This document shows positions 7,504-14,870 of a DNA stretch of 64,000 nt, in pieces. The stretch spans positions 1 to 64,000 of the forward strand of contig JANDLT010000001.1 in assembly GCA_024330265.1 (NCBI GenBank), in the 5' to 3' direction. The translations under genes and the position numbers were made by a program. Under the pieces are notes generated by a model. That model did not search any database and was not told where the DNA came from. It saw nothing but the letters and a program-made list of their open reading frames with translations. The first letter of the stretch is position 1. Each line of letters starts with the position of its first letter. The DNA is from Pyrinomonadaceae bacterium MAG19_C2-C3. GTDB lineage: Bacteria > Acidobacteriota > Blastocatellia > Pyrinomonadales > Pyrinomonadaceae.

Positions 7504-7867
7504 TTAGTTCGGGATAAGGATTTGAGCCACGCAAGTGGCGGCATAGTCATAGCCCATGTCGTGAGACATGGGCTGAGAACAGGATAAAAGTCAAAGCCCC
7601 GTCGGGGGCGACACAAGTTATGTCGTCCCTAACGGGCAATGGCATTAAGTTAAGGTTGTTTGGAGGCGGGCTATGCCCGCCGTCCCCGCGCACGGCGGGC
7701 ATAGCCCGCCTCCAAACGGGCGATTATTTTCTTAACTTAATGCCATTGCCCTAACGGGGCTTTAATCTTCAGTCTTTACCTTTGACCTACCTCTCACGAT
7801 GTGGGCTATGACTATGCCGCCACTTGCGTGGCTAAGAGGTCGCTTCTTAGCTCGAACTCAAGTTAAA
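7504..7867. repeat. Palindrome island B1 with nested 112-bp element
   Basis: A long nested inverted repeat fills the gap between pgl and the DAC gene. The outer arms 7525-7565 and 7793-7833 match at 39 of 41 positions. Inside them a GCCCCGTCGGGG / CCCTAACGGGGC palindrome pair is interrupted by the element at 7637-7748. The ends contain a TAACnTnAGTTCG-like motif, also seen at the left end of the island at 14432. No clear flanking duplication was found for the whole island. Confidence 0.8.
7637..7748. mobile_element. 112-bp palindromic MITE-like element, copy 1
   Basis: The terminal inverted repeats are CAATGGCATTAAGTTAAG and CTTAACTTAATGCCATTG. The core is a strong palindrome (TTTGGAGGCGGGC...GCCCGCCTCCAAA). 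The perfect direct repeat CCCTAACGGG flanks it at 7627-7636 and 7749-7758. If the ends are set at GGG...CCC instead, the duplication is 4 bp (TAAC). Copy 2 at 14586-14697 is its reverse complement with one base difference. It has no coding capacity, so mobilisation would need a transposase in trans. Confidence 0.8.
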
Positions 7868-7946
7868 TTAGAACTATCTCCAAAGGGATGGCATCAAACC
7901 TTCATTCAAGACAGAAAATCTTTCATCATTCAAAGGGTTGTAATTC

Positions 7947-8525
7947 TTGTTTAATACACTTTGCTCGAAAGCCAAAGTTCGTCATCCGGGCGTGCTTGAG
8001 GCGGTCATCGAAATCGGCGTTGAAATCGCGCGTGAAGGGCGCGAAGGCAGGCGCATCGGAACTATCTTCACCGTCGGCGACCATGAAGCGGTGTTGAAGC
8101 GTTCGCGGACATTGATTCTCGACCCGCTCGCCGGACATGCCGACGAAGACAAACACATCACGAACCGGAACTTGCGCGGCACGGTCAAAGAACTCGCGCA
8201 ACTCGACGGCGGTTTCATCGTCTCGGACGATGGCATCGTCATCTCGGCGTGTCGCTATCTGGACGCGACGACTTCGGATGTCGAACTCGCGTTCGGTTTG
8301 GGCAGCCGTCATCTGGCGGGAGCGAGCGTGTCGCGTGTGACGTGCGCGGTCGCGGTCGTCATCTCTGAAAGTTCGATGGTCAGAGTCTTTGAACGCGGCG
8401 TGCTGATTGGTGAAATCATTCCCGAAGTGTGGTTGCTCAATCGTCATAATGTTCAACTGCGCGGAGCGGTAACGGAAGAACACGAAGGCGATATGACGGT
8501 TTTGACGACGCAGAAAATGACGTGA
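7947..8525 (+). CDS. DisA N-terminal (DAC, diadenylate cyclase) domain protein
   Basis: A 192-residue stand-alone protein resembling the DAC domain, which makes c-di-AMP from two ATP. HPGVLEAVIEIGVEIAREGREGRRIGT, LDGGFIVSDDGIVISACRYLDA and GSRHLAGASVSRVT align with family positions by eye. The canonical catalytic DGA reads DGG, and the RHR motif reads RHL, so activity is uncertain; the protein could be a divergent cyclase or a nucleotide sensor. There is no transmembrane segment (unlike CdaA) and no DisA linker or HhH domain. The start is TTG 7947, shortly after an in-frame stop at 7941, with AAAGGG 10 bases upstream. The N-terminus is therefore short, and GTG 7992 is an alternative. Confidence 0.75.
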   Translation: MFNTLCSKAKVRHPGVLEAVIEIGVEIAREGREGRRIGTIFTVGDHEAVLKRSRTLILDPLAGHADEDKHITNRNLRGTVKELAQLDGGFIVSDDGIVISACRYLDATTSDVELAFGLGSRHLAGASVSRVTCAVAVVISESSMVRVFERGVLIGEIIPEVWLLNRHNVQLRGAVTEEHEGDMTVLTTQKMT

Positions 8526-8549
8526 GGCGCGATATAAGAAGCGAGAAGG

Positions 8550-8662
8550 AATTTATCCACGAAGCACACGAAGCAGCACGAAACAAAACCGGAATTTTAA
8601 TTTCTCCTACAATTCACGATTCACCCCGCTTTCATTCTGGCTTCTGGCTTCTGACTCCTGCT
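8550..8662. repeat. Two single-armed heptamer-type repeats
   Basis: TTTATCCACGAAGCACACGAAG (8550-8572) belongs to the same word family as the hairpins at 14331 and 17513. CTGGCTTCTGACTCCTG (8644-8660) belongs to the GTCAGAA family. No complementary arm is close by, so these may be remnants of hairpins. Confidence 0.55.
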
Positions 8663-8666
8663 TTTT

Positions 8667-9128
8667 ATGAACTCCCACATTTTTCAAATCAATGCTTCGC
8701 GCGGCGGCGTGCCGAAATCGGCGGTGCGCGAGGCGACGTTAATCGCCACCGGACTTACGATTGACGTGCAGAGACTGACGCAGTTTCATGGCGGGACGGA
8801 GCGCGCTTTGTGTTTGTATTCGCTGGAAAAAATTCTTGCTTTGCAACGGGAAGGGCATCCGATTTACCCCGGCTCGACGGGCGAGAATGTGACGCTCGCG
8901 GGCATTGATTGGGATGAGTTAAGGATTGGCACACGGCTCAAGTTGGGTGATGAAGTTGCGGTTGAAATAAGTAGTTACACCGTGCCGTGCAAGCAAATCG
9001 CGGCGTCGTTTATAGACGGCAATTTTAAGCGTATCTCACAGGTTCAGCATTCCGGTTGGTCACGCCTTTATGTGCGCGTGATTGAGGCGGGCAATCTCGT
9101 CATCGGGCAGACGGCGCGCGTGTTGTGA
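8667..9128 (+). CDS. MOSC domain-containing protein
   Basis: A 153-residue cytosolic protein consisting almost entirely of a MOSC (molybdenum cofactor sulfurase C-terminal) beta-barrel domain. Supporting segments are GVPKSAVREATL at the N-terminus, HGGTERALCLYSLEKI, GHPIYPGSTGENVTLAGIDWDEL and the conserved cysteine in YTVPCKQI (about 110). In this family the Cys is thought to carry or bind sulfur for the molybdenum cofactor or related chemistry; YiiM-type members reduce N-hydroxylated compounds. The neighbours give no clue to the substrate. Compact single-domain size is normal for the YiiM-like subgroup. Confidence 0.88.
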   Translation: MNSHIFQINASRGGVPKSAVREATLIATGLTIDVQRLTQFHGGTERALCLYSLEKILALQREGHPIYPGSTGENVTLAGIDWDELRIGTRLKLGDEVAVEISSYTVPCKQIAASFIDGNFKRISQVQHSGWSRLYVRVIEAGNLVIGQTARVL

Positions 9129-9223
9129 TTTCCTTATAGCGTGGGTTAGTTGGGACAAGCGGCATGGACGCAAGTTATAATGCCGCTGCTCAAGCATAAA
9201 ACTTACCTCTTGCGGGTCTCTTT

Positions 9224-9733
9224 TTGATAAGCAAAAACAGGTTGATAAATTCGATAGTGAAGGATGTGCGCGTCGTCTGTGTCGCGGTGTGGGTCGGTGC
9301 GTGCGTGTTGTTCGCGGCGGGACTCGCGCCCGTGTTGTTTGAGGTTTTGCCGACACGGGAACTCGCGGGCGTGGTTGTCAATCGCGTCTTGCGGTTGTTG
9401 AATGTCGGCGGATTGATTGTCAGTCTCGGATTGCTGTTGAGTTTGTGGAGCGGTGGGCGGCACGCGGCGGCAAAGTGGTGGCGCGCCGAAGCCGTGTCGC
9501 TCGTCGTGGTCGCGGTGACGTGCGCGGTGAATCATTTCGTCATCGCGCGGCGCATCGCGGAGTTGCGCGCACAGATGCCGACACCGATTGACGCTCTCGC
9601 GGCGACGGATGATTTGCGCGTCGCGTTCGGCTCTCTGCACGGTTGGTCAATTCTCGTGTTAGGCTGTGGCGTGGTCGCCGGAATCGTGGCTCTGGTTTTA
9701 ATCGCGCGGCGCGAGACTACGATGACGGTGTGA
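9224..9733 (+). CDS. DUF4149-like integral membrane protein
   Basis: About 155-169 residues with four hydrophobic segments (about residues 15-40, 52-72, 86-106, 142-162). This resembles the DUF4149/TMEM205-type membrane family in size and in the charged pattern between helices 1 and 2 (VLFEVLPTRELAGVVVNRVLRLLN). Function in this family is unknown. The listed start is TTG 9224; in-frame GTG codons at 9257 and 9266 are equally plausible, and no good ribosome-binding site decides. An AGCGGCAT/ATGCCGCT hairpin at 9158-9187 lies between this gene and the MOSC gene. Confidence 0.6.
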   Translation: MISKNRLINSIVKDVRVVCVAVWVGACVLFAAGLAPVLFEVLPTRELAGVVVNRVLRLLNVGGLIVSLGLLLSLWSGGRHAAAKWWRAEAVSLVVVAVTCAVNHFVIARRIAELRAQMPTPIDALAATDDLRVAFGSLHGWSILVLGCGVVAGIVALVLIARRETTMTV

Positions 9734-9796
9734 CGACGGTGCATTGGTGGTGTGAGATAGTTCATTGATTCGTAAGTTCAAAGGTGGATAAAGACG

Positions 9797-10615
9797 TTGG
9801 AGATTATCGAGAAGATTGACCGTTGGCATAGAAACTTCGATGAGTGGAAGGGCAAATACGGCAGGGATTTGGTGCGCGGTGAATTAGATAGCGACTACCC
9901 TTTTGTGGCGAACAATCACGCGGCGTTAGTTCCCGTGCGGCGTGCGTTGCCGCTTCTTAATCTCGCTCTCATCACATCGGCGGGAGCGTATCTTGACGGC
10001 ATGGAAGGCTTCGATACGACGACGCGCGGCGGCGACATGACGATGCGCGAGATACCGACGGAGATTGACGCCGGAGATTTGCTTTACAGCGCGCGTGGCT
10101 ATGACCCTTCGGCGGTGCGAAGGGATATGAACACTCAAATTCCTCTCGCGCGTCTCGCGGAGTTTTCCGCCAACGGCATCATCGGTTCACTCTCGCCGGT
10201 GTTCTTCAGTTTCTGCGGCTTTATCCCTGACGCCGCGACGTTTGCCGAACAAGCCTTGCCGCGCTTGGTTGAGCGCGTGCGGCGTTATGAAGTGCAAGCC
10301 GCGCTGCTGATTCCCGCGTCGCGTTTGTGTCATCAATCAATCGCCCTTGCCGCCCGCGCATTGGAAGCATCGGGCGTGCCGACGATGATGCTCGCGGTTA
10401 ATGAGCGCGACATTCTCGAAGCGGTTCGTCCGCCACGCGCGGTTTATCATCAAGGCGAATTGGGGAGTGTCGTCGGCGCGCCCGACTTCAAAGAGTATCA
10501 ACGCCGCGTGCTTGATGAAGCTTTGCGTTCGATGGAGACGTGGGATCAACCCGGCGTGCGTAAGTTGAGCGTCAAGTTGGAGTCCGCCGTCGAAGCCGAA
10601 CGCGGGGAAAGATAG
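9797..10615 (+). CDS. Glycine/sarcosine/betaine reductase selenoprotein B-like family protein
   Basis: A 272-residue soluble protein related to the GrdB/PrdB family. Family-like stretches are VPVRRALPLLNLALITSAGAYL, MREIPTEID, DMNTQIPLARLAEFSANGIIGSLSPVFFSF and EAVRPPRAVYHQGELGSVVG. Anaerobic GrdB uses a selenocysteine to reductively cleave glycine or betaine. No in-frame TGA is seen here and the protein is shorter than classical GrdB (~430), so it is probably a non-selenium paralogue of unknown activity, as in many aerobic soil bacteria. Start is TTG 9797 with AAGGTGG about 9 bases upstream. Its stop codon lies inside the first GATAGTG heptamer of the following repeat. Confidence 0.7.
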   Translation: MEIIEKIDRWHRNFDEWKGKYGRDLVRGELDSDYPFVANNHAALVPVRRALPLLNLALITSAGAYLDGMEGFDTTTRGGDMTMREIPTEIDAGDLLYSARGYDPSAVRRDMNTQIPLARLAEFSANGIIGSLSPVFFSFCGFIPDAATFAEQALPRLVERVRRYEVQAALLIPASRLCHQSIALAARALEASGVPTMMLAVNERDILEAVRPPRAVYHQGELGSVVGAPDFKEYQRRVLDEALRSMETWDQPGVRKLSVKLESAVEAERGER

Positions 10616-10686
10616 TGGATAACGGATAGTGGATAGTGAGGAACTTGTCTTTAACTATCCACTCTCCACTATCCGTTATCCACTAT
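10611..10686. repeat. GATAGTG heptamer hairpin at convergent gene ends
   Basis: The left arm reads GATAGTG GATAACG GATAGTG GATAGTG. The right arm is the complement (CTATCCACT, CTCCACTATCCGTTATCC). The left arm contains the stop codon of the GrdB-like gene (10613-10615). The right arm contains the stop and the last codons of the histidine kinase (10669-10690). It probably acts as a bidirectional terminator. Confidence 0.85.
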
Positions 10687-13600
10687 TTTGTCGAGTAGGT
10701 CGGCGATGGTTTGAAAGTCGAAGGGTTTGCCGATTATCTCGTCCACGATGGGTTCGTCTCCCACGCGCCCGCGTTCGTCGCCGATGGTCGCGCCGTAGCC
10801 GGTTATCATCACGACTTTCATATCGTGTCTCGCCGCTTTGACTTCGCGGGCAAATTCCCAACCGTCCATGCCGGGCATGGATAAATCGGTAAAGACGACA
10901 TCGAAATCGTGCGTGGCTAAAAGCTCCAATCCGGTTTGCCCGTTCGTCGCTTCAATCACGTTGTGACCGAGCATCGTCGCCATGTCCGCGAGTGTCGCGC
11001 GCACGATGTCTTCATCGTCAACAATCAGAATCGTGAGCGCGTTCGATGTCTTTGTTTGAATCGAGGCGGGGGCTTCATGTCGCGGCGCGGGGTTGGTTTC
11101 AAGCGGCAGAGTAATCGTGAATGTTGCTCCGCGAAGGGGTTGCGAACTCACCGAAATCGTTCCGGCGTGGCGTTCGACGATGCCGTAGGAAACGAACAAT
11201 CCGAGTCCCGTGCCGTCCAAGCCCTTCGTCGTATAGAACGGCTCGAAGATGCGTGCGCGCACTTCATCGCTCATCCCTGTGCCGTTGTCGCTAAATCCAA
11301 TTTCGATGGTCGAGGCGGAAGTGCATCTGCCGCGCACCGTGAGTTGTCCGCCGTTTGGCATCGCATCAATCGCGTTGACAATCAGATTGACAAAAATCTC
11401 GCGTAGCTCCGACGGGCTGCCCATCGCGGGCAAGTCTTCCGGCGCATCGAGGTCAACGATGTATTCGAGTCCATCGGCGCGTGCTTCGTTTTGCCAGCGC
11501 GTGCGTGTGAGTTCGATGGCGTCACGCAACAGGGTTTGCACGTTGACCGGCTCGAAATCTCGATCTCCGGTTTGGCTGGCAAAGGTTTGTATGCGGCGCA
11601 CGGTCGCGGCGGCATCTTCCGCCGCTTTCTGAATCACGTCCAGATTTTCATGCAAACGCGGATTGGTGATTTGCCGCGACAGTAATTGCGCGCGTCCGAT
11701 GATGGCGGCGAGCGAGTTGTTGAAATCGTGTGCGACGCCCGACGCAAGTTGACCGAGTGCGCGCAGTTTGTCGGACTGCAAGACGCGCTCTTGAGTCAGT
11801 TTGTCTTCCGTGATGTCGCGGACGATGCCAAGAACGCCCGTGATGCTCCCGTCAATTCTAAGCGGAGCGTTATTAAATAGCGCGCAACGTCGCGCGCCGT
11901 CGCTGGTGTGATAGCGGGCTTCGTAAGTGACGGGCACGCCACCGAGCGATTTCTCGAAAGCCTTGCGCGCCATGTCACGGTCTTCTTCGGTGATTAGCTC
12001 AAGGTGATGACGACCGATGATGTCTTCCATCGCGTAGCCGCTGATGGCGGAAGTCGCGCCATTGCACCACTGGAAAAAACCGCGCGGGTCAACCGCGAAA
12101 ATGGCTTCGGCGGCACTCTCCAAAATGTTGACGAGCAGCGATTGTTGTTCGCGCGCGATGGCTTCAATCTCGCGCAGTTCCGACATGTCACGCACCGTAC
12201 AAACGACGTTAATGATAACTCCGTTCTCTTTAACCGGAGCGACGCTCACGAGCAACGGACGTTGCAAGCGTTCGGGTGTCACCTCGATGGTCACGGCGCG
12301 CCCTTCCGCCATCGTGCGCTCGACGATACATTCGGAATCCGTGTCGGCGGCGCGCAAGATGTCGCAGCACTTTTTACCGAGCAGCAAGTGCGGATAGGAA
12401 TCTTCGAGTTGCGCCCCGACGCGATTGGCGCGCACGAGTCGCCGCGAGGCATCGAAAATAAACACGCCGTCCGACATCGCATCGAAGGTGGTTTCCCATT
12501 CATGCTTGGCGCGTTGCACCATCTCGAAAAGTTCCGCTTGCCCGATGCCGGTTGCCAGTTGCGCGGCGACGGCTTCAACCAGTGCGACTTCATTTTTCGT
12601 CCACTGGCGGACGTAATCGGTCTGGTGAATACACAGCACGCCGCGAAAGCGTCCCTGCACGACAACCGGGCAAAAGACTTGTGAGAGAGCCTGACGCTCT
12701 ATGGCATTACGGCGGATGTGCGCGCTGTATTCGTCTGACCCGTCCGCGTAATTCGCCGCGTCGTTGATGACGATGCAAGTTTGAGTTTGTGTCAGAAATT
12801 GCCCGAACACATTGCCGAAGCTTGAACTTTCGGGTGTTAGTGGGGCGACGCCGTGAGCCGTGTATTCGTGTATGACCGGAACTTCTTCCTGCGCCGGATG
12901 GTACAAACGAATGTATGTGCGCGAGGCATTGAGGGCGCGACCGAGTTCATGCGTCGCGGTGTGAAGAACCTCGTTTAAGTCGAGCGACGAGCGAATCGCG
13001 TTGCCGAGATGGTTAATCAGATTTTCACGTTTGGAAGCTTCGGCGGCTTGCGTATAAAGCTGTGCCTGACGAATGGCGACGCCTGTTTGAGCGGCAACCA
13101 CACTCGCCAGCTTTATATCCGCTTCCCGCCAGTGGCGTGCGCTGTGAACATTGCTCAACGCAAATCCGCCGATGAGAACATCGGTTGCATCTTTCACGGC
13201 GACATACAGAACCGAAGCGATGTTGCGGCTACGCAGTAGTTCACGATGCACGGACGGAATATCGGCGTGTGATGCGACATCATCAATCGCAATATAACCT
13301 TTGCGGCGGATACCGGCGACAAGCGGTTTAAGTGAATCAATCGTGAAATCGCGTCCCGATACGATGATGCCGGGACGTGAGTATTCCGCGACGTTACGCA
13401 CCAAAGCCTCTTGGCGGTCAATCATAAACAGCACGCAGCGGTCGGCGTCGAGATGTGTGCCGAGTTCGTCAACCGCCGCGCGAAAAATTTCCGCCACGTC
13501 GAGCGAACTACGCAAATGTTCGCCAATCCGGTTGATGATTTGCTCGCGCGCCGCCTGTTGCGAAACGGCTTCTTGTGCTTGTTTAAGTTCGGTGATGTCA

Positions 13601-14067
13601 TTGACGACGGTTAAGACCGCCGGTACGCCGCCGAGATCAATCTGCTCGGCGGAGAACAAACCGATTCTCACTTCACCGGATTTAATGCGAAACAAGGCTT
13701 CGTGTTTATAGACACGTTCGTTCCGAAGCAACGCCTCGAACATCGGCACTCGCTGTGCAGGTTGCGCCCACAACCGCAGTTCCTTCGCGTCGCGCCCGAT
13801 GGCTTCGCTTGGCGTATAACCACTGACGCGCGTGAACCCTTGATTGACGTAAAGATACCGCCCATCGTCGAGGCGACTAATAAGCATCGGGTCGGGGCTG
13901 ATGTCGAAGATTTTGAAGAACTGTTCTTCGGAGACGTGAGGCGGCGTGGCGGGGGCAGTCGTCGCACCTGAAACACCGGGCGGCGTAAAGTCACGGCTTC
14001 CGGTGCGCGCGATAACGGCGGCTTCCTCCGCTGTCTGGCAATCGTCGAGGAACGTATTGTGATTCAT
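10669..14067 (-). CDS. Hybrid sensor histidine kinase (PAS-GAF-GAF-PAS-PAS-HisKA-HATPase-REC)
   Basis: A 1132-residue soluble hybrid kinase without transmembrane helices. Domains in order: PAS (about 45-160, FDISPDPMLISRLDDGRYLYVN), two GAF (about 180-330 and 345-500), PAS (about 520-630), PAS (about 640-755, ESAAEAIFAVDPRGFFQWCN), HisKA with phosphoacceptor His in LGQLASGVAHDFNNSLAAI (about 780), HATPase (EIFVNLIVNAIDAMPNGG; GTGLGLFVSYGIVERHAG) and a C-terminal receiver with Asp in VVFTDLSMPGMDG. It probably senses cytosolic or diffusible signals through PAS/GAF ligands and passes phosphate to its own receiver and then an unlinked partner. No output gene is adjacent. The last residues are encoded by a heptamer repeat. 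The VAHDFNNSLA box is typical of NtrB-like kinases. Confidence 0.92.
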   Translation of the reverse strand: MNHNTFLDDCQTAEEAAVIARTGSRDFTPPGVSGATTAPATPPHVSEEQFFKIFDISPDPMLISRLDDGRYLYVNQGFTRVSGYTPSEAIGRDAKELRLWAQPAQRVPMFEALLRNERVYKHEALFRIKSGEVRIGLFSAEQIDLGGVPAVLTVVNDITELKQAQEAVSQQAAREQIINRIGEHLRSSLDVAEIFRAAVDELGTHLDADRCVLFMIDRQEALVRNVAEYSRPGIIVSGRDFTIDSLKPLVAGIRRKGYIAIDDVASHADIPSVHRELLRSRNIASVLYVAVKDATDVLIGGFALSNVHSARHWREADIKLASVVAAQTGVAIRQAQLYTQAAEASKRENLINHLGNAIRSSLDLNEVLHTATHELGRALNASRTYIRLYHPAQEEVPVIHEYTAHGVAPLTPESSSFGNVFGQFLTQTQTCIVINDAANYADGSDEYSAHIRRNAIERQALSQVFCPVVVQGRFRGVLCIHQTDYVRQWTKNEVALVEAVAAQLATGIGQAELFEMVQRAKHEWETTFDAMSDGVFIFDASRRLVRANRVGAQLEDSYPHLLLGKKCCDILRAADTDSECIVERTMAEGRAVTIEVTPERLQRPLLVSVAPVKENGVIINVVCTVRDMSELREIEAIAREQQSLLVNILESAAEAIFAVDPRGFFQWCNGATSAISGYAMEDIIGRHHLELITEEDRDMARKAFEKSLGGVPVTYEARYHTSDGARRCALFNNAPLRIDGSITGVLGIVRDITEDKLTQERVLQSDKLRALGQLASGVAHDFNNSLAAIIGRAQLLSRQITNPRLHENLDVIQKAAEDAAATVRRIQTFASQTGDRDFEPVNVQTLLRDAIELTRTRWQNEARADGLEYIVDLDAPEDLPAMGSPSELREIFVNLIVNAIDAMPNGGQLTVRGRCTSASTIEIGFSDNGTGMSDEVRARIFEPFYTTKGLDGTGLGLFVSYGIVERHAGTISVSSQPLRGATFTITLPLETNPAPRHEAPASIQTKTSNALTILIVDDEDIVRATLADMATMLGHNVIEATNGQTGLELLATHDFDVVFTDLSMPGMDGWEFAREVKAARHDMKVVMITGYGATIGDERGRVGDEPIVDEIIGKPFDFQTIADLLDKIVDNG

Positions 14068-14330
14068 CAGAAGTTACAAAAATCGGAAACGATGTTGTGT
14101 GAAATTTCATAACATCGCCCGGCGGCGTGACAAGGGAAAACGGCGCGCGACGACGAAGCCTACTAACTTAGGTGAGGGGAAACGGGAACGGCGGAAACTG
14201 CTTTTAACTTGCGGACAAGCCGGAGGTTTGGGAACAGCCCCGGCTTTGGTGGCAAAGGGAAGTATAACAAGCCGCGCGCGTCGCTGTCACGGCAAAGAAA
14301 AGCGTGAGATGCAAGGTAAAAGAAAAAGGA

Positions 14331-14420
14331 GTTTATCCGCGAAACAACACGAAACGACACGAATAAGAACACGAAAGAACCGCTTTGTTTCGTGCTGTTT
14401 CGTGTGTTTTGTGGATAAAG
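14331..14420. repeat. Tandem-repeat hairpin (ACACGAA/TTTCGTG words)
   Basis: The left arm GTTTATCCGCGAAACAACACG...ACGAA pairs with TTCGTGCTGTTTCGTGTG...GTGGATAAAG on the right. The same words form the hairpin at 17513-17581 and the single arm at 8550. Confidence 0.75.
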
Positions 14421-14431
14421 CTTTACCGCTT

Positions 14432-14870
14432 CTGATGTCGAACTGACGTTAATATAACGTCAGTTCGACATCAGAACAGCGGTCTTCAGCCACGACAGTG
14501 GCGATAGATAGGCACACCGTTAAGCAAGGACAAGCCCCGTCAGGGGCGAAAGATATGGGCGCGAATCTCTTTCGCCCCTGACGGGCAATGGCATTAAGTT
14601 AAGAAAATAATCGCCCGTTTGGAGGCGGGCTATGCCCGCCGTGCGCGGGGACGGCGGGCATCGCCCGCCTCCAAACAACCTTAACTTAATGCCATTGCCC
14701 TGACGGGGCTTCGCTTCGTCTTGCTGACTCTGACCCCCGATTTAAGTGCGTTTCTGTAAGTTAGAGGCAAGGCTTCGCTTCGTCTTGCTGACTCTGACCC
14801 ACGGCTTGCGCCGTGGGCTCTGGTCGTCCCTGACGGGGCTGCAATCCTTATGTCGAACTCTCATGAAATA
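14432..14870. repeat. Palindrome island B2 with nested 112-bp element
   Basis: It begins with a perfect inverted repeat (14432-14451 pairing with 14455-14474, 3-base loop) containing TAACGTCAGTTCGACATCAG. The right end repeats ATGTCGAACT (14850-14859). Inside are GCCCCGTCAGGGGC / CGCCCCTGACGGGGC palindromes, split by the element at 14586-14697. A further copy of the segment CTTCGCTTCGTCTTGCTGAC occurs twice (14708-14727 and 14771-14790). Related to island B1. Confidence 0.75.
14586..14697. mobile_element. 112-bp palindromic MITE-like element, copy 2 (inverted relative to copy 1)
   Basis: It is the reverse complement of 7637-7748 with a single base difference (ATCGCC against ATAGCC within the core). 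Perfect direct repeats CCCTGACGGG flank it (14576-14585 and 14698-14707). The flanking sequence differs by one base from the copy-1 flank, yet it is perfectly duplicated at each site, which supports two separate insertions. Confidence 0.8.

Follow-up and report, generated by a model that had tools for sequence, protein, structure and literature searches.

A 112-bp MITE with IS4-type ends, very probably moved in trans, inserted in REP-like stem-loops of a Pyrinomonadaceae genome

The first 64,000 nucleotides of contig C1 (here called the window) of Pyrinomonadaceae bacterium MAG19_C2-C3, a draft genome of 4.80 Mb in 144 contigs that is 94% complete, contain two oppositely oriented copies of a 112-bp sequence, raising the questions of how this sequence is moved and what is recognized at its targets. 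Copy 1 (7637 to 7748, plus strand) is an imperfect palindrome without an open reading frame, bounded by 18-bp terminal inverted repeats, CAATGGCATTAAGTTAAG, at 7637 to 7654 (plus strand) and 7731 to 7748 (minus strand). As originally predicted, copy 2 (14586 to 14697, minus strand) is its reverse complement with a single difference, T versus G at position 36. The perfect 10-bp flanks were also confirmed, CCCTAACGGG bordering copy 1 at 7627 to 7636 and 7749 to 7758 and CCCTGACGGG bordering copy 2 at 14576 to 14585 and 14698 to 14707. Each copy struck one stem-loop of a REP pair whose partner is intact, at 7596 to 7609 for copy 1 (GCCCCGTCGGGGGC) and at 14534 to 14547 for copy 2 (GCCCCGTCAGGGGC); an additional target stem-loop at 14826 to 14839 (GTCCCTGACGGGGC) is unoccupied. 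Single-strand DNA folding of copy 1 and its repeats gave −60.1 kcal/mol, whereas shuffled sequences averaged −22.9 (z −11.6). Elsewhere in the window, an intergenic hairpin of GTGGATAACGGATAGTGGATAGT and its complement was observed between two genes (10615 to 10683), and a near-perfect long inverted repeat, TGATGTCGAACTGACGTTAATATAACGTCAGTTCGACATCA, at 14430 to 14480. The motif CGTCAGTTCGAC of the latter was also found near another copy (L073) and an unoccupied site (in L071), which suggests another repeat family.

Alignment of the 112-bp sequence to the whole genome gave 77 matches at about 45 places, 6 of them identical across all 112 bp, and the pair in the window is therefore not due to chance. 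The 18-bp end occurred 74 times with at most 2 mismatches, compared with 0 for the reversed control. Among 48 places that were read, 45 had at least one end with its flank and 3 were internal fragments. Most elements were 109 to 113 bp long, with variants of 83, 131, 133 and 332 bp in which the ends were kept, as expected if the ends alone are needed. The element thus has the MITE features of being short, multicopy (about 45 copies) and noncoding with inverted ends. Many contigs begin or end within a copy; the element accounts for many breaks in this assembly, and given these breaks some copies may carry wrong joins. In the other genomes searched in the class the 112-bp element itself was absent; what matched there was its central palindrome or its ends, apart from one genome with a match of 72% overall. 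No plasmid match was found. Rfam microRNA matches were rejected as spurious and palindrome-driven. A c-di-AMP riboswitch on contig C67 of the same genome (58.7 bits; L062, 586 to 764) starts about 75 bp downstream of a copy, the insertion of which may affect its leader. A 217-bp element was shared by G086, a related genome in this family, and JAFDVJ010000064.1 of Acidobacteria bacterium SZAS-13.

The flanking repeats had been predicted to be target duplications, and were scored on the 29 copies in which the two ends and the two flanks could all be read. An exact direct repeat was present in 16 (15 of 10 bp and 1 of 11 bp), a repeat with one mismatch in 4 and a repeat with more mismatches in 9. 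Across the whole genome the repeats agreed within sites and differed between sites, in support of the prediction, and target site duplication is thus a further MITE feature of this element. The original prediction had allowed a duplication of either 4 or 10 bp. The longer reading held and the shorter did not, because repeats that lack the CCC/GGG frame and are adjoined by the same ends (CGCTAAAGCG in L083, CCCATTAGCG in L069 and GGGTTATACCC in L089) still show 10 to 11 identical bases outside the ends. Repeats with mismatches would have arisen by recombination between copies or from assembly errors. In the mismatched copies L060, L063 and L072, the left half derives from one stem-loop and the right half from the one opposite it, from which we infer recombination of two copies within one pair, with misassembly as the alternative.

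Thirty-six of the 45 copies adjoined CCC-N4-GGG on at least one side, compared with 0.008 expected from the density of this motif in the window. The duplication was centred on a small stem-loop, GYCCC-N4-GGGRC, that forms part of REP-like repeats; the genome contains 107 unoccupied stem-loops of this form (reversed control pattern, 5), arranged as inverted pairs such as GCCCCGTCAGGGGCGACACAA...TTGTGTCGCCCCTGACGGGGC. Of the original claim about the target site, the palindrome stood, but its placement in one arm of a large palindrome gave way to the centre of the stem-loop G(C/T)CCC-N4-GGG(G/A)C, the large palindrome being an inverted pair of such stem-loops. Copies outside REPs also lay at symmetric sites, e.g., CGCTAAAGCG and GGGTTATACCC. 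When the flanks of a copy were joined to rebuild its target, the product resembled unoccupied repeats elsewhere in the genome (L073 and unoccupied L071, 95% over 64 bp; L084 and unoccupied L080, 87% over 72 bp). Insertion into REP-like palindromes was supported by both the whole genome and its relatives.

The outer part of these REP-like repeats was found to correspond to Acido-Lenti-1 (RF01687, an "sRNA" in Rfam), with scores of up to 49.6 bits; the REP-associated flanking repeat in the window (7525 to 7572, minus strand) resembled it at 34.3 bits, under the gathering score of 37. Acido-Lenti-1 was observed in inverted orientation on both sides of RAYT (Y1_Tnp) genes, together with target stem-loops, the Acido-Lenti-1 and RAYT places being L311 (1311 to 1356 and 1903 to 1948), L312, L313 and the repeat in the window. 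Acido-Lenti-1 may represent a mobile DNA repeat that belongs to a tyrosine transposase, instead of or besides an RNA gene.

Alongside the observed ends, copy number, duplications and their centring, the similar empty sites and the IS4-family elements with the same ends elsewhere, we consider it very probable that the 112-bp MITE is moved in trans by an IS4-family cut-and-paste DDE transposase into short G+C-rich dyad targets. The enzyme would recognize the 18-bp ends and excise the MITE, which would then be joined to the target with a 10-bp (at times 11-bp) stagger, and repair would leave the 10-bp direct repeat. The favoured target would be a short G+C-rich dyad, here GYCCC-N4-GGGRC, with the dyad axis at the midpoint of the duplication.

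The IS4 subgroup of the IS4 family has ends of the form -AATR--------WTW and direct repeats of 10 to 13 bp (PMC2266710). The MITE ends fit this consensus (C-AATG-GCATTAAG-TTA-AG) and its 10- and 11-bp repeats fall within the range, the placement in the subgroup being made from the ends only. Against this reading stand the nine copies whose repeats differ at two or more bases, and the ends of a MITE are by themselves no proof of the transposase that moved it. In the public genomes scanned, the ends of the 112-bp MITE turned up across many phyla, for the most part on elements of 80 to 300 bp, with full IS elements in Clostridia; ends CAATGNCATTAAGTTAAG occurred in Acidobacteriota, Chloroflexi, Desulfobacterota-type bacteria, Clostridia, Bacteroidota, Kapabacteria and one archaeal bin. 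The complete genome of Clostridium manihotivorum has 17 full IS with these ends (16 of 1660 to 1691 bp and 1 of 3570 bp), and 16 of the 17 have 10- to 11-bp duplications. The transposase of the one copy that was read belongs to the IS4 family (173 bits against NF033592, cut-off 115) and carries Y(2)R(3)E(6)K (YREK), YFKRWGIETSFRDLK; a single-ORF DDE transposase with this motif is thus present in the C. manihotivorum IS and absent from the MITE. A Lachnospiraceae element with these ends (1753 bp, 11-bp repeat) has a transposase scoring 168 bits against the same profile. The 3570-bp C. manihotivorum element (L362, chromosome 4430387 to 4434036), with the same ends and the exact 10-bp repeat GGCAAGTGAC, is about twice the usual length, and extra cargo or a nested insertion is possible. 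The CAMBFS01 records (L150, L160, L165, L183 and L185), from a bin whose Klebsiella pneumoniae label looks doubtful, contain numerous MITEs of 122 bp that share these ends and whose duplications are mostly CCC-N4-GGG.

The original prediction held the element to be non-autonomous and proposed a search for a transposase with matching ends. Its non-autonomous nature is borne out across the genome and in relatives. The draft genome yielded no transposase with such ends, every end match in it enclosing MITE interior, and no match to the NF033592 profile in this genome reached the cut-off. The sole IS4-type gene of this genome (C130) was rejected as the driver, its ends being different (TACAGGACAAAA). 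When DDE_Tnp_1 genes from this genome and from eight relatives were searched for ends and, jointly, for a duplication with inverted repeats, none had these ends. Single unpaired ends were present in relatives, and no transposase adjoined five of them. The transposase beside a half copy on contig C119 was also rejected, being of the IS701 family. In another genome of the same class (G066, C31), an IS4-type gene lies about 380 bp inside an identical end; this was given little weight, since the contig stops before the right end, the gene does not conserve the tyrosine of YREK and contamination of the bin is possible. The Clostridium transposase used as a query against the relatives produced one weak match only. 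As this genome gave no such transposase, we infer both the driver and its action in trans: an IS4-type transposase would have acted in this lineage and since been lost, or may be missing from the draft assembly.

It had further been predicted that the element targets hairpin-forming DNA. Insertion at dyads and REP-like palindromes was upheld, while the enzyme may recognize either an extruded hairpin or a G+C-rich symmetric duplex. The same MITE might instead be directed by two transposase subunits reading a symmetric G+C-rich duplex consensus, with no hairpin or cruciform, an explanation that we rank as a serious contender just short of probable. Consistent with it, symmetry was concentrated in the duplication, with complementarity of the outer four positions within exact duplications at 77% in this genome, 81% in the class and 65% in other phyla, and outside the duplication MITE sites paired little more than expected by chance (31 to 35% versus about 25% at random). 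Also consistent with it, swapping right arms between the sites of this genome did not lower the pairing, 4494 of 5000 shuffles reaching the observed value. However, for sites drawn from many phyla arm swaps did reduce it (81 of 5000 reached the observed value), as they did for one C. manihotivorum IS group (121 of 5000), and the target sequence varies between genomes (CCC-N4-GGG, GGC-N4-GCC and GCC-N4-GGC) while symmetry is retained, which was the least expected result. The eight exact-repeat sites of that C. manihotivorum group mostly had long paired arms (70% pairing versus 27% at random), and this group sits at the tips of long hairpins bordered by A and T runs, terminator-like by eye; in the other IS group of this species, arm pairing was 48% versus 29% at random. 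These data establish a preference for dyads at the target sites, not recognition of hairpins. That the CAATGNCATTAAGTTAAG-ended IS4-family elements and MITEs pick their targets by dyad symmetry (the hairpin apex) and not by sequence is a tentative suggestion that we consider somewhat doubtful.

The element could also be part of a REP/REPIN system driven by the genome's own Y1 tyrosine transposases (RAYTs) and not by a DDE enzyme, a reading that is very improbable and largely refuted by the target duplications. The genome has 11 Y1_Tnp matches, REP-like stem-loops of the targeted type lie beside some Y1_Tnp genes and the element is itself palindromic. However, 16 copies have exact 10- to 11-bp repeats, and Y1/HUH transposition is not known to leave a target duplication; moreover, the ends match those of DDE-type IS4 elements, and the RAYT gene that was fully read is flanked by target repeats and lacks the MITE ends. 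The MITE thus shows neither the absence of duplication nor the position beside a Y1 transposase gene that mark REPINs and RAYT-mobilized repeats. Duplication and inversion of one island, or co-copying of the MITE and its flanks by recombination, is scarcely credible and is refuted as the general origin, for although the two copies in the window hardly differ and their repeat islands resemble each other, and the nine copies with mismatched repeats are obtainable by recombination between copies and could possibly have this origin, the repeats agree within and differ between sites, copies exist outside REPs (CGCTAAAGCG and GGGTTATACCC, for example) and similarity between flanks is confined to the REP family and never longer than its repeats (at most 184 bp at 75% or 167 bp at 85%). 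Transposition, as first proposed, was therefore retained, the flanking repeats varying by site with no segmental duplication of the flanks.

The insertion of IS4 elements at the REP axis is already known. ISRm22 of Sinorhizobium meliloti, of subgroup IS4Sa in the IS4 family (PMC2266710), inserts in REPs exactly at the axis of palindromy, and some of its copies have mismatched direct repeats, ascribed to recombination (PMC1525189). The predicted likeness to REP insertions elsewhere thus has a known IS4-family case, and the MITE likewise sits at the REP symmetry axis with some mismatched repeats; however, ISRm22 is autonomous with reported repeats of 6 bp, whereas the MITE is 112 bp long with 10-bp repeats and IS4-subgroup-like ends. 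Some IS4-subgroup members are reported to have marked specificity in the target arms (PMC2266710). The MITE resembles this subgroup in its ends and repeat length but has no transposase, and none matching was found in this genome. Cassette elements of the MIC231 type carry passenger genes, unlike the MITE. The MIC231/IS231 elements of Bacillus cereus are described, in titles that PMC2266710 cites, as non-autonomous derivatives of an IS4-family element. The MITE is similarly non-autonomous and IS4-type, but the ends of IS231 start CAT-------AA--TAA. Tyrosine transposases with long terminal repeats have been reported from Acidobacteria (PMC3733652). REPINs and TIRtrons (RAYT/TIRYT) are short intergenic palindromic repeats, and such repeats are the target of the MITE here, which unlike them has DDE-type ends and makes target duplications. 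What sets the present case apart is that the element is a MITE, that its host belongs to another phylum, that its ends differ and that its duplication is 10 bp.

With its many copies, the IS4-type MITE in REP-like repeats clearly illustrates how a mobile element can settle within the repeats of another, where insertion probably does little harm. Relatives of the element in many other phyla likewise favour self-complementary target sites. If targets are indeed picked by dyad symmetry, such elements would parasitise any hairpin repeats of their hosts, REPs here and terminator-like hairpins in Clostridium, and if the choice is one of shape, C. manihotivorum, whose complete genome holds 17 full copies of the IS, would lend itself well to studies of how a DDE transposase finds hairpins.
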